A stretch of 64,000 bases of DNA from Thioalkalivibrio sp. ALE31 (lineage in GTDB: Bacteria > Pseudomonadota > Gammaproteobacteria > Ectothiorhodospirales > Ectothiorhodospiraceae), in assembly GCF_000377405.1 (NCBI RefSeq), contig NZ_KB905021.1, positions 86,038 to 150,037 of the forward strand. The letters run 5' to 3'. The stretch's first letter is position 1. Each line of letters begins with the position of its first letter. The position numbers and the translations under genes are program-made. The notes under the pieces are model-generated. The model searched no databases. It saw only the letters and a program-made list of their open reading frames with translations, and had not been told where the DNA came from. Shown here one piece after another: positions 57,209-62,296 of the stretch.

Positions 57209-57299
57209 GGAGAGGTGGCCGAGCGGTCGAAGGCGCACGCCTGGAAAGTGTGTATACGGTAACCCCGTATCGAGGGTTCGAATCCCTCCCTCTCCGCCA
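57209..57299 (+). tRNA. tRNA-Ser (anticodon GGA)
   Basis: A 91-nt class II tRNA with encoded CCA. The acceptor stem 57209-57215 pairs with 57289-57295 and the discriminator is G. The anticodon stem is 57236-57240/57248-57252 around the loop CTGGAAA, with anticodon GGA at 57243-57245, reading UCC and UCU. The long variable arm and the T arm GGTTCGAATCC are clear. Confidence 0.97.
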
Positions 57300-57405: not shown

Positions 57406-58038
57406 ATGGAACCCCGATTTCGCGAAACTGACCTCCTGCGTGGCGTGGCGCAGATTGCCCAGCTCCCGGCCGACACGGGCGTCGAGATCGCCTTTGCCGG
57501 GCGCTCCAACGCCGGCAAGTCCAGCGCCCTGAACGCCTTGTGCGGGCGCAAGGCGCTGGCGCGGGTGGGCCGCACCCCCGGGCGCACCCAGGAGATCAAC
57601 CTCTTCCGTCTGCCGCCCGCCGAGCACTGGCGGCTCGTCGACCTGCCGGGCTACGGCTACGCCAAGGTGTCGGCCGGCAAGCGCGCCGAATGGGATCAGC
57701 TTCTGGGTGGCTATCTGCAGACGCGCCAGTGCCTGGTGGGGCTGGTGCTGATCATGGACATCCGCCGGCCGCTGACCGAGCTGGATCGCCAGCTCCTGGA
57801 CTGGGTGCCTCTGGAGCGCTGCCACTTGCACTGCCTGCTGACCAAGGCGGACAAACTCTCGCGCCAGGAGGCCGACCGCCAGTTGCGCAAGGCGCATGGT
57901 GAGCTGGAGGCCATGGGCGTCGAGGCGACGTTGCAGACCTTCTCCTCGCTGAAGAACCAGGGTGTCGATGACCTGCGCGGCCTGCTGGGTGGCTGGCTGG
58001 CCGAGCATGATCCGGAGTCGGCTCCCGCGACCGGCTGA
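57406..58038 (+). CDS. engB: Ribosome biogenesis GTPase EngB (YihA/YsxC)
   Basis: EngB is an essential GTPase for 50S assembly. The 210 residues contain G1 GRSNAGKSS (32-40), the switch region GRTPGRTQEIN, G3 DLPGYGYAK, G4 TKADK and G5 SSLKNQG. The ATG at 57406 gives the family length; the open frame upstream runs through the tRNA and is not coding. It has no strong ribosome binding site. It converges on the SCO1-like gene, with a highly structured intergenic region between them. Confidence 0.95.
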   Translation: MEPRFRETDLLRGVAQIAQLPADTGVEIAFAGRSNAGKSSALNALCGRKALARVGRTPGRTQEINLFRLPPAEHWRLVDLPGYGYAKVSAGKRAEWDQLLGGYLQTRQCLVGLVLIMDIRRPLTELDRQLLDWVPLERCHLHCLLTKADKLSRQEADRQLRKAHGELEAMGVEATLQTFSSLKNQGVDDLRGLLGGWLAEHDPESAPATG

Positions 58039-58082
58039 GGCCCGTCTCTGCCCGACGGTCGAGCGGATACACGAAACGCAGA

Positions 58083-58212
58083 CAAAAAGAAGCCCCGGCC
58101 TTGGGGTGGGACCGGGGCTAATTTCGGCCTCTACAGGGGGGGAGAGAGGCCTATTGCCCGCTCAGGGAGAGAAGCGGGCCGCGCTGGGCTAGAGCGCTCA
58201 GTAAGTGAGAAA
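58083..58212 (-). ncRNA. Candidate small RNA ending in an intrinsic terminator
   Basis: The engB/SCO1 gap holds four consecutive stem-loops: 58181-58185/58193-58197, 58156-58162/58173-58179, 58126-58132/58145-58151 and 58091-58098/58112-58119. Read on the minus strand, the last is followed by TTCTTTTTG, a good intrinsic terminator. About 12 nt upstream of 58212 is a sigma-54-like GG-N10-GC element (minus strand 58237-58224, CGGCAGGAACTTTGCC). Two loops are C/U-rich and share CCCTG. The locus between polA and engB is where E. coli Spot 42 and Pseudomonas ErsA are encoded, also in the polA direction. The terminator also serves the SCO1 operon. The sRNA is inferred, not proven. Confidence 0.4.
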
Positions 58213-58296
58213 GCACTGCGCGGGCAAAGTTCCTGCCGCGTGCCTCTCGATTGCGAATTTTTTCACAGAATCCATCGTTGCCGTCCGGGGTGTGGC

Positions 58297-58944
58297 TCAG
58301 TTGGCTGTCCCGGTGGCCTCCGCATGGGTTCGCAGGCCCTCCACCAGTTCGGCGGCGGGTGTCCCGTGCGGGTAGATCTGCAGCAAGTCGCCTTCCGGGC
58401 CGACCAGGTAGGTGGACGAGCTGTGATCGACCACGTAGCCCATGGCCGAGTCGATCTCGGTGCGTTCGTAGAATACGCCGTAGCGTTCCGTGATCGGCTG
58501 CAGCTCTTCGTGGGACCCGGTCGCCGCCTGGATGGCCGGGTGGAAGTGCCCCACATAGGTCTCCAGGCGCTCGCGGTCATCACGTTCCGGGTCGACGCTT
58601 ACCAGTACCGCCGCGACCTCGCCCTCCAGCTCGGGCGGCAGGCGGTCCAGCGCGGCGCTGATCCAGCCCAGGCTGGTCGGGCAGGCATCCGGGCAGGCGG
58701 TGTAGCCGAAGTAGACCCAGACGTATCGCCCTTCCAGGTCCGCCAGCCGGAACCGCTCGCCCGTGGTGGAAACGGGCAGTTCGATCGGCCCGCCGGATAC
58801 CGCATCGGCCACCGGCAGGCGTTCGTGGTCGGCCCCCTGGGACACGGGGGGTGGTGCCGGGCGGAGCATCACGAAGACGAGCAGGGCGCCGGCCGCCAGC
58901 ACGGCCAGTACCCAGAGCAGGCTGCTCAGCGGGATACGCTGCAT
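58297..58944 (-). CDS. SCO1/SenC-type copper chaperone
   Basis: A 215-residue membrane-anchored thioredoxin-fold protein of the SCO family, which helps metallate the CuA centre of cytochrome c oxidase and may reduce disulfides in the periplasm. It has one N-terminal membrane segment (about 8-27), the copper-binding Cys84 and Cys88 in YTACPDACPTS, and His174 in VVDHSSSTYL, all three expected ligands. It lies 11 bp downstream of the small membrane protein gene and forms an operon with it and polA. Confidence 0.92.
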   Translation of the reverse strand: MQRIPLSSLLWVLAVLAAGALLVFVMLRPAPPPVSQGADHERLPVADAVSGGPIELPVSTTGERFRLADLEGRYVWVYFGYTACPDACPTSLGWISAALDRLPPELEGEVAAVLVSVDPERDDRERLETYVGHFHPAIQAATGSHEELQPITERYGVFYERTEIDSAMGYVVDHSSSTYLVGPEGDLLQIYPHGTPAAELVEGLRTHAEATGTAN

Positions 58945-59474: not shown

Positions 59475-62177
59475 CTAGTGTGCGTCGTCCCAGTTGGCGC
59501 CGGTGCCGACATCTACCACCAGCTCCACGTCGAGCTCGGCGGCCCCGCTCATGGCCTGGCGCACCAGCGTGGTCAGGTCCTCCACGGCCGCATCGGCCAC
59601 CTCGAACACCAGTTCGTCGTGCACCTGCATGATCATGCGGGCGTCGATATTCGAGTTCGCGAGATCGTTGGCGACGCGCACCATCGCGCGCTTGATGATG
59701 TCGGCGGCGGTACCCTGCATCGGGGCGTTGATGGCGACACGCTCGGACTGCTGGCGTCGCGCCCCGTTGCGGCTGTTGATCTCCGGCAGGTACAGGCGGC
59801 GGCCGAACAGGGTCTCGACATAGCCGTTCTCGCGCCCGGAGGCGCGCGCGCGTTCCATATAGTCGTGCACGCCGGGATAGCGATTGAAGTAGCGGTCGAT
59901 GTACTCGCGCGCCTCGCCCTGCTCGATGCCGAGGTTGCGCGCCAGGCCCCAGGCGGACATGCCGTAGATCAGGCCGAAGTTGATCGCCTTGGCCGCGCGG
60001 CGCTGATCGCCGGAGACCTGCTCCGGGTCCAGCCCGAAGACCTCGGCGGCGGTCGCGCGGTGGATGTCCTGGCCCTCGCCGAAGGCCTTCAGCAGGCCCG
60101 CGTCCTGCGACAGGTGGGCCATGATGCGCAGCTCGATCTGCGAGTAGTCCGCCGCCAGCAGCTGGTGTCCCTCATCCGCGATGAACGCGCGGCGGATGCG
60201 CCGGCCGGCCTCGGTGCGCACCGGGATGTTCTGCAGGTTCGGCTCCGAGGACGACAGCCGCCCGGTGGCTGCCCCCGCCTGGTGGTAGGAGGTGTGCACC
60301 CGTCCGGTCTCCGGGTGGATGCGCCGGGGCAGGGTCTCGGTGTAGGTGCTGCGCAGCTTGGACAGGCCGCGGTGCTCGAGGATCAGGCGCGGCAGGGCGT
60401 AGTCGTCCGCCATCTGCTCCAGCACGTCCTCGGCGGTGGAGGGCTGGCCCTTGGGCGTGCGCCGCAGCACCGGCAGGCCCAGGCGCTCGAACAGGATCTC
60501 CTGGATCTGCTTGGGCGAGCCGAGGTTGAACTCGCCGCCGGCCTCCTCGAAGGCCTCGCGCTCGATGCGCTCCATCTCGGCCAGCAGCTCCTGGCTCTGC
60601 TCGCCGAGCAGATCCGGGTCCACCTTTACGCCCACGCGTTCGATATCCGCCAGCACCGGGACCAGCGGCATCTCGATCTCGCGGTAGACGAACGCGGGGC
60701 CTTCAGCCTCTTGCAGGCGCGGCTGGAACACCGCATCCAGCTGAAGGCAGATGTCGGCATCCTCGCCGGCGTAATCGGTGGCGATGCCGATATCCACCTC
60801 GGCGAACGGGATCTGCTTCGCGCCCTTGCCGGCCACGTCCTCGTAATGCGTGGTCTGGTAGTCCAGGTGGCGCTCGGCCAGGGAGTCGAGGTCGTGGCGG
60901 TTGGCGCCGGCATCCAGGCAGAACGACTCGAGCAGGGTGTCGTCGACGATGCCGCGCAGGGTGATGCCGTGATTACCCAGCACGTTGCGGTCGTACTTCA
61001 GGTGATGCCCCAGCTTGCCGTGGTCCTCGGATTCCAGCCAGGGCTTCAGACGTTCCAGCGTCTCCGCGCGCGGCAGCTGCGGGTCGGCATCCGGCCCGGT
61101 GTGGGCCAGCGGCAGGTAGTAGGCGGTGCCTGGCTCGAAGGCGAAGGACATGCCGACGATCTCGGCGCGCATCGCATCCAGGCTGGTGGTCTCGGTATCG
61201 AAGGCGACCCGCTCGGCCTGGTCCAGACGCTCCAGCAGCTCGGCCAGTTCGACCTCCTCGCGCAACGTGCGGTAGTCGGCCTTCGCCAGCGGCGAGCCCG
61301 GATTGCCGCTAGCGGCCGCGTCCTCGCCGCCCTCCAGCTCCGCGCGCCAGCGGGTAAAGCCATAGCGGCGCACCATCTCCAGCAGGCGCTCGTGGTCCGG
61401 CTCGCGGATGTTGAGGTCGTTGGGGCCGACGTCCAGCTCGACATCGCGCTTGACCGTGATCAGTTCGCGCGAGGTGGGCAGGCGCTCGGCCGCGGCGCGC
61501 AGGTTCTCGCCGATCTTGCCGCCGATGCCGTCGGCCTGTTCCAGAATGGTGTCGAGATCGCCGTACTTCGCGATCCACTTGGCCGCGGTCTTGGGGCCGA
61601 CCTTGTCCACGCCCGGGATGTTGTCGACGCTGTCGCCCATCAGCGCGAGGTAGTCGACGATCTGCTCCGGGGCGACGCCGAATTTCTCCTGCACGCCCTC
61701 GGGGTCCAGCGTGACCCCGCTCATGGTGTTGACCAGCGTGATGCGGTCATTCACCAGCTGCGCGAGATCCTTGTCGCCGGTGGAGATCACCACGTCATGC
61801 CCGGCGCGGGCCGCCTGGTCGGCCAGGGTCGCGATCACGTCGTCGGCCTCCACGCCCTCGACGCACAAAAGCGGCAGGCCCATCGCCCGCACCAGTTCGT
61901 GCAACGGTTCGATCTGGGCGGCCAGCTCGTCCGGCATCGGCGGGCGGGTGGCCTTGTATTCCGGATAGATGTCGTCGCGGAAGGTCTTGCCCTTGGCGTC
62001 GAACACCACCGCCATGTGTTCCGGGCCGTAGTCCGCGCGCAGCTTGCGCAGCATGTTGGCCACACCAATCATCGCCCCGGTCGGGGCGCCATCCGGCGCG
62101 GTCAGCGGCGGCAGCGCATGGAAGGCGCGGAACAGGTACGACGAGCCGTCGACCAGGACAAGAGGCGCTTGCGACAT
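59475..62177 (-). CDS. polA: DNA polymerase I
   Basis: Pol I removes primers and fills gaps. The 900 residues have three domains. The 5' nuclease is at about 1-290, with VLVDGSSYLFRAFHAL, VEGVEADDVIAT and NIPGVDKVGPKTAAKW. The 3'-5' exonuclease is at about 320-500, with the catalytic D-x-E in VAFDTETTSLD, so proofreading is probably intact. The polymerase has LLAADYSQIELRIMAHLSQD and MQVHDELVFEV. The ATG at 62177 is chosen over an upstream in-frame ATG because the family begins M-x-x-x-P-LVLVDGSSYL. The small membrane gene starts directly at its stop. Confidence 0.97.
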   Translation of the reverse strand: MSQAPLVLVDGSSYLFRAFHALPPLTAPDGAPTGAMIGVANMLRKLRADYGPEHMAVVFDAKGKTFRDDIYPEYKATRPPMPDELAAQIEPLHELVRAMGLPLLCVEGVEADDVIATLADQAARAGHDVVISTGDKDLAQLVNDRITLVNTMSGVTLDPEGVQEKFGVAPEQIVDYLALMGDSVDNIPGVDKVGPKTAAKWIAKYGDLDTILEQADGIGGKIGENLRAAAERLPTSRELITVKRDVELDVGPNDLNIREPDHERLLEMVRRYGFTRWRAELEGGEDAAASGNPGSPLAKADYRTLREEVELAELLERLDQAERVAFDTETTSLDAMRAEIVGMSFAFEPGTAYYLPLAHTGPDADPQLPRAETLERLKPWLESEDHGKLGHHLKYDRNVLGNHGITLRGIVDDTLLESFCLDAGANRHDLDSLAERHLDYQTTHYEDVAGKGAKQIPFAEVDIGIATDYAGEDADICLQLDAVFQPRLQEAEGPAFVYREIEMPLVPVLADIERVGVKVDPDLLGEQSQELLAEMERIEREAFEEAGGEFNLGSPKQIQEILFERLGLPVLRRTPKGQPSTAEDVLEQMADDYALPRLILEHRGLSKLRSTYTETLPRRIHPETGRVHTSYHQAGAATGRLSSSEPNLQNIPVRTEAGRRIRRAFIADEGHQLLAADYSQIELRIMAHLSQDAGLLKAFGEGQDIHRATAAEVFGLDPEQVSGDQRRAAKAINFGLIYGMSAWGLARNLGIEQGEAREYIDRYFNRYPGVHDYMERARASGRENGYVETLFGRRLYLPEINSRNGARRQQSERVAINAPMQGTAADIIKRAMVRVANDLANSNIDARMIMQVHDELVFEVADAAVEDLTTLVRQAMSGAAELDVELVVDVGTGANWDDAH

Positions 62178-62296
62178 GAAGGTGGAATCCGGACAGGGAA
62201 CGCGCGCCATTCTACAGGCCCGGCCCGGGCCGCGACCATTTGTGCGCGCCCGGGGGCGCCGGTACGCTGAAGCCTTCACCCTTGGGAACCCGCTGC

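Follow-up and report, generated by a model that had tools for sequence, protein, structure and literature searches.

A putative sigma-E-type small RNA gene beside engB in Thioalkalivibrio sp. ALE31, a candidate member of a class-wide polA/engB-locus family

The engB–SCO1 intergenic region

The window, by which we mean the whole stretch of 64,000 nucleotides analyzed, comes from the 2.77 Mb genome of Thioalkalivibrio sp. ALE31. It contains a gap (58039–58296) flanked by engB, also named yihA (57406–58038, plus strand; TIGR03598, 215.7 bits against a cut-off of 124.45), and a SCO1/SenC-like gene (58297–58944, minus strand; PF02630, 126.2 bits). A predicted sRNA gene of about 117 nt (58083–58200, minus strand) lies in this gap, downstream of the SCO1/SenC-like gene and adjoining engB, with which it is convergent. 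polA (59475–62279, minus strand; TIGR00593, 953.3 bits) is located 1.2 kb upstream of the sRNA, with SCO1 and one other gene in between; in many relatives the sRNA directly adjoins both polA and engB. A tRNA gene (57209–57296) was seen just upstream of engB. An Rfam search of the engB/SCO1 gap returned no family at or above its cut-off.

Structure of the predicted RNA

The minus strand from 58200 to 58083 folds into four stem-loops (−55.4 kcal/mol; z = −3.81), with none of 200 dinucleotide shuffles folding as well, and a longer segment of the same strand (58215–58083) gave z = −3.71. The prediction of a gene rests on this fold, on covariation within the genus and on the score of a class-wide covariance model described below (R3, 101.6 bits). 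Stem-loop 1 (58181–58197, minus strand) displayed both-side changes in two of its five pairs, with 100% of cells paired among the genus loci. Stem-loop 2 (58156–58179, minus strand) carries a nearly invariant loop, CUCUCCCU, which is the candidate target-binding loop; six of its eight pairs showed no variation in the genus and the sequence CTCCCTGAGCGG within this hairpin was present in 21/21 loci. Stem-loop 3 (58126–58151, minus strand; loop CUCCCCCCCUGU) changed on both sides in five of seven pairs, again with 100% of cells paired. Stem-loop 4 and the T-tract that follows it (58083–58119, minus strand) make up a predicted intrinsic terminator, in which one of nine pairs had changed on both sides and two on one side. 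Its stem consists of 10 pairs (58091–58100/58110–58119) closing a 9-nt loop and is followed by TTCTTTTTG; a T run after the last stem was found in all 21 genus loci. A simple scan that allowed loops of 3–8 nt reported no terminators and no sigma-70 promoters.

The four stem-loops and the minus-strand terminator described in the initial annotation are thus all in the sequence, the terminator stem being longer than the 8 bp given there. The two C/U-rich loops with CCCTG that it pointed out are located at 58171–58164 (running into the stem as CUCUCCCUGAG) and 58144–58133, and the terminator loop is C-rich as well.

Promoter and upstream elements

Upstream of the RNA lies a sigma-E-type −35 box, GGAACTT (58227–58233, minus strand), of which GGAACT was present in 21/21 and the full GGAACTT in 18/21 genus loci. 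A −10 box, TCTCA (58206–58210, minus strand), follows after 16 nt, and TCnnA with the 16-nt spacer was kept in all 21 loci. The sigma-E consensus is GGAACTT, a spacer of about 16 nt and TCTGA or TCAAA. The rpoH gene of the same genome (TIGR02392, 356.4 bits) is preceded by GGAACTT-N16-TCTCA with identical boxes, and transcription of rpoH in E. coli is under sigma-E control. The genome also encodes RpoE (305.8 bits, over the cut-off) and Hfq (101.4 bits). Genome-wide, the pattern GGAACTT-N15-17-TCNNA occurred five times compared to four in a reversed control, with no enrichment. Taken by its boxes, the sRNA promoter looks like a sigma-E-type promoter. These conserved boxes (58233–58227 and 58210–58206) place the predicted start near 58200 and give an RNA of about 117 nt, so that of the earlier proposal of a roughly 130-nt RNA starting near 58212 the minus-strand sRNA gene is supported and the predicted start and length have been revised. 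Elsewhere in the genome a site GGAACTT-N16-TCGCA (L025, G000:C1:464481-464508) precedes a gene whose product is similar to a mechanosensitive channel protein (202.3 bits with NF008542, under its cut-off of 596) and which is a possible further sigma-E target.

Sigma-54 dependence had been proposed from a GG-N10-GC element at minus-strand 58237–58224. The element is present in the window but was kept in only 3/21 genus loci, and because of this it is best taken as a chance occurrence; the overlapping sigma-E-type boxes are found in 21/21. We therefore rate a sigma-54-dependent sRNA transcribed from this element as extremely improbable.

Further upstream, a CRP-like palindrome, TGTGAAAAAATTCGCA (58252–58267, minus strand), is close to TGTGA-N6-TCACA and centered at about −61 from the predicted start, a spacing characteristic of class I CRP sites. 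It was found at 11/11 loci of the window's subclade (L001–L011), where it agrees with the consensus at 9–10 of 10 positions and keeps a constant spacing, its center falling at −60.5 or −61.5. The palindrome was absent from the other 10 genus loci, of which L013 and L014 keep 7/10 positions at the same distance and the remaining eight have nothing notable. As a feature of the whole family the CRP-like site was rejected (1/89 outside the genus compared to 13/1497 control windows). A title cited in PMC3771888 describes Spot 42 as repressed by CRP.

Conservation within Thioalkalivibrio

We searched 40 genomes at the DNA level (the genome itself, 24 relatives of the same genus and 15 genomes from other families), resulting in matches in 21, namely its own and 20 of the 24 relatives. 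No DNA match was obtained in the 15 genomes from other families, nor in four of the same-genus relatives (three genomes 79–80% complete and one 96%). Common to all 21 loci were GGAACT-N16-TCnnA, the four stems, CTCCCTGAGCGG and the T-run. Two spurious matches inside polA and a 24-nt second match in G001 (L022) were left out of the alignment. As a held-out test, 10 loci were used to build a model, which scored the 10 more distant genus loci at 68.9–86.9 bits over the full length of the model. Among the neighbors, mostly examined to about 1.5 kb on each side, engB was present at 20/21 loci and convergent at all 20, SCO1 at 16/21 and polA at 17/21.

The genus structure alignment consisted of 21 rows including the window's own locus, of which 19 were distinct, and like the class alignment below it was fitted to the structure. 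In an earlier version the terminator was one column off in ten rows; ten rows were modelled and the rest realigned by the model. Over 29 pairs, 99.3% of 551 cells were paired and compensatory change on both sides was observed in 9/29 pairs, neither of which was reached by any of 500 shuffles, and these pair counts, like those of the class alignment, lean towards the assumed structure because the remaining rows were realigned by the model. Slid controls of the same alignment had 29–49% of cells paired. Further pair types showed no excess (14 compared to 16.6 in the shuffles). A lack of compensatory changes among close relatives had been named in the initial annotation as an outcome that would refute the sRNA reading; the test came out in favor of that reading, with such changes in 9/29 pairs within the genus and in 29/29 across the 75 sequences of the class alignment.

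The coding strand

A caveat in the initial annotation was that the RNA could be read from the plus strand, where AGGGA in one loop matches the ANGGA motif of CsrA-titrating RNAs. The plus strand of 58083–58260 has an unexceptional fold (z = −1.21; 26/200 shuffles as good), and reading the genus alignment as its complement broke 36 of 609 pair cells, compared to 4 of 609 on the minus strand. The minus strand is favored by these G–U pairs, by the conserved promoter boxes and by the T-tract. Membership in the CsrB/RsmZ type was rejected: the plus strand, which bears the GGA, showed no conserved structure or promoter. The reading of a CsrA-titrating RNA from that strand, acting through AGGGA/ANGGA loops, has the motif in its favor, but with the weak plus-strand fold and the G–U pairs fixing the minus strand it retains next to no probability in our estimate.

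A class-wide family

A covariance model (R2) was built from the 21 genus loci without the promoter. It matched 128 of 369 genomes of the class at E ≤ 0.01, representing 100 of 271 genera, and these places were found without use of neighboring genes or promoter. Setting aside two genomes of the own genus and one (G146) with no listed place, 125 genomes were examined at one place each, with neighbors checked over 1.5 or 2.2 kb on each side and less at contig ends. engB or polA was nearby at 107/125 places outside the genus (engB at 85, polA at 74), and engB was convergent with the RNA in 81 of the 85; neither gene was in the stretch examined at 18/125. Sigma-E-type boxes, defined by at least six of seven positions of the −35 box followed by TC after 15–17 nt at the expected offset, were present at 90/125 places compared to 14/2180 control windows. 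At the 35/125 places that failed this strict rule, several show GAACTT out of register.

A 22-nt hairpin pattern run over the named genomes gave at least 80 loci (80 listed of 119). Seven of those listed bear the name Thioalkalivibrio, and the listing is no census. Among the 80, 73 were within 1.5 kb of engB or polA, every one was also matched by R2, and 52 carried promoter boxes, a tally made under a different box rule from that of the 90/125 count. They include loci in Ectothiorhodospira, Collimonas, Methylobacillus, Gallionellaceae, Rhodocyclaceae and Steroidobacteraceae. At seven of these loci (L085, L095, L097, L101, L103, L126 and L136; Aquitalea, Pseudogulbenkiania, Paludibacterium) engB is codirectional with the RNA and not convergent.

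An alignment of 75 sequences was assembled with 69 loci chosen from the R2 and hairpin-pattern sets (matches at E ≤ 1e-7). In this alignment, fitted to the structure, all 29 pairs changed on both sides and 95.5% of 2097 cells were paired, with a covariation score of 0.632 compared to 0.193 when shuffled and 0.04–0.11 when slid. Of the 128 genomes in which the RNA was found, 110 had no over-cut-off match to the four Rfam families tried, and therefore most of the family in the sample would escape annotation by those models. Overall the evidence favors the window sRNA being an unannotated member of a class-wide family at the polA/engB locus with a sigma-E-type promoter.

Tandem copies, loci without sigma-E-type boxes, and members away from engB and polA

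At L060 (also at L204) the RNA occurs in five tandem copies, all of which have a GAACTT-like box and a terminator of their own. Four R2 matches each were obtained in G195 and G302, and two copies stand at each of L034, L042 and L046. In other loci the RNA was kept and the sigma-E-type boxes were gone (L033, L039 and L041 of family f10; L036 and L038 of f131). A sigma-70-like site was found upstream at L033 and L041, and one was looked for at L039 without being found. A promoter swap is possible at these loci. Four family members (L201, L206, L207, L208) were located away from engB and polA, and at L201 a gene encoding an RnfH domain is found close to two RNA copies.

Two readings compete with that of a trans-acting sRNA gene. 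The first holds that there is no separate sRNA and that the element is either the structured tail of the SCO1 transcript or a mere terminator between convergent genes; the RNA does follow SCO1 closely, shares its strand and closes with a terminator. It has, however, its own conserved promoter boxes, and an invariant loop with four covarying stems exceeds what a terminator needs. The RNA is also kept where SCO1 is not a neighbor (SCO1 is present in 16/21 genus loci), the upstream neighbor elsewhere is often polA (74/125) and tandem copies each have their own box and terminator, which together make this reading very unlikely. The second places the main role in cis, on the convergent engB, through read-through or transcription collision. 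The convergent placement is indeed widely kept (81/85), but outside the genus the distance from RNA to engB ranges from 0 to 1641 nt, and at most loci the RNA stops before reaching engB. What is conserved is loop sequence rather than overlap, and members occur away from engB and polA (18/125; L201, L206–L208), so that we consider a mainly local role very unlikely.

The preferred reading, for which we see a high probability, is that the minus strand from 58200 to 58083 is a stand-alone gene for a trans-acting envelope-stress sRNA with C-rich anti-Shine-Dalgarno loops.

Relation to known RNAs

The 75 sequences were used to build the class model, R3. In a noise control of 264 kb (200 kb of E. coli K-12 plus the window) DsrA reached 25.4 bits and another E. 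coli place 18.7 bits, and because of the DsrA score R3 scores under about 26 prove nothing.

Anti-hemB (RF02837; the Burkholderia RNA 7, ncS04) shares the hairpin CCCGCUUCU(C)CUCCCUGAGCGGG with the window RNA, and after it come another hairpin and a terminator. Its Rfam model, which lacks stem 1 of the window RNA, gave the window 39.0 bits, below the gathering cut-off of 49.5. At E ≤ 0.01 the model matched 203/369 genomes but also four unrelated control genomes, and for this reason only its over-cut-off places were used. Of these, 22 in the class, 20 coincide with R2 places. At the highest-scoring place of the sample (G131, 65.7 bits), engB and polA are both absent within 2.2 kb and no boxes of the sigma-E type pass the rule. 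By the shared places, anti-hemB and the window RNA are one family. Hfq binding of ncS04 is cited in the available text of PMC5688073, and in the qPCR table shown ncS04 is without a listed fold change (PMC5688073, PMC3521395).

sX13 of Xanthomonas (RF02232) adjoins polA and has C-rich loops in common with the window RNA; in sX13 they repress G-rich targets, and PMC3771888 describes the loops as needed for that repression, which is Hfq-independent. R3 gave all three sX13 loci, each of them by polA, 35.3–38.8 bits compared to noise of up to 25.4 in the small 264-kb control. RF02232 scored 20.1 bits on the window (cut-off 50) and had no match over the own genome, and no GGAACTT-type box was visible by eye upstream of the three sX13 loci. 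The R3 scores are suggestive, and sX13 may well belong to the same family as the window RNA.

ErsA (RF01719, Pseudomon-1) lies in the polA–engB gap and depends strictly on the envelope-stress factor sigma-22, as stated in the portions available of PMC7565897 and PMC8575079. By its sequence the window RNA has a predicted promoter of this sigma-22/sigma-E kind, GGAACT-N16-TCnnA being present at 21/21 genus loci, and the one true ErsA locus in the sample (G186, the only locus over the RF01719 cut-off) has TGAACTT-N16-TCATA upstream. Weaker RF01719 matches were by engB or polA in 19/24 cases; on the window the model gave 16.1 bits (cut-off 50). To act on its target anr, ErsA uses an unstructured U-rich domain (PMC8575079), and such a domain is absent from the window RNA. 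Homology to ErsA on the R3 score alone was dropped, the 24.1 bits obtained being within the noise and below the 25.4 of DsrA. The initial suggestion, a minus-strand sRNA gene of ErsA-like character at this locus, was supported by the conserved structure and the compensatory changes.

The likeness to Spot 42 (RF00021) did not extend beyond location and orientation: spf lies between polA and yihA/engB (available text of PMC3295665), is convergent with yihA and ends in a terminator. Spot 42 membership was rejected, RF00021 having no match in the own genome; it also had none over cut-off in the 369 class genomes. R3 on spf gave 19.0 bits, no support in view of 25.4 for DsrA and 18.7 for the other E. 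coli place. The second-best Rfam family on the window was the alphaproteobacterial alpha-r7 (RF02342; 25.5 bits, below its cut-off of 60), for which the part of PMC3771888 available mentions C-rich apical loops and the polA locus. A survey that includes Thioalkalivibrio (PMC11109978) names other motifs in the text available, with “engB” absent from its main text, and the text seen of PMC8092127 mentions other ncRNAs. No paper linking anti-hemB, sX13 and ErsA was found among the open-licence literature.

Candidate targets and proposed mechanism

We searched the own genome for the target pattern CAGGGAGA-N1-11-ATG. The pattern occurred at 17 places compared to three in the reversed control, and seven of the 17 open a frame of at least 120 codons. 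The genes include those of a di-haem peroxidase, a photolyase, an ABC-transporter ATPase, an MliC-like protein and GGDEF and PAS/HAMP proteins. The di-haem peroxidase, which has the longest pairing (CAGGGAG at the start), was rejected as a conserved target, with the match at 2/19 genus loci including its own; several start codons are uncertain. The loops are present as the initial annotation described them, and their pairing with ribosome-binding sites is a possibility.

Transcription would begin at a sigma-E (RpoE/AlgU) promoter, a step supported by the conservation of the boxes, and would yield an RNA of four stem-loops, the last acting as terminator, as supported by covariation. When the envelope is under stress, the C-rich loops (CUCUCCCU, CUCCCCCCCUGU and that of the terminator) may then pair with G-rich Shine-Dalgarno regions. 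By analogy with sX13, where this has been shown, such pairing would repress translation of a set of mRNAs. Hfq may help the pairing, which sX13 achieves without it. More tentatively, a CRP-family protein bound at about −61 could provide a second input in the subclade of the window.

Origin and significance of the family

Relatives of the RNA occupy the same place in many gamma- and betaproteobacteria, and because of this several separately described sRNAs may be one old gene. We see about even odds for a single ancestor, an envelope-stress sRNA gene that already existed early in the gamma/betaproteobacteria, lying downstream of polA and facing a convergent engB. Its diverged descendants would then be anti-hemB, sX13, ErsA and, perhaps, Spot 42, with control moved from sigma-E in some lines and tandem multiplication in some.

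The authors of the sX13 study ask, in the text available of PMC3771888, whether the polA locus elsewhere encodes sRNAs. For this sample of the class the answer is yes, and the model, the promoter rule and the list of loci make the remaining half of that question testable. Different promoters before one conserved RNA would represent a natural experiment in regulatory rewiring. For the sulfur-oxidizing bacteria of soda lakes the RNA is, as far as the searched literature shows, a first candidate for an envelope-stress sRNA.
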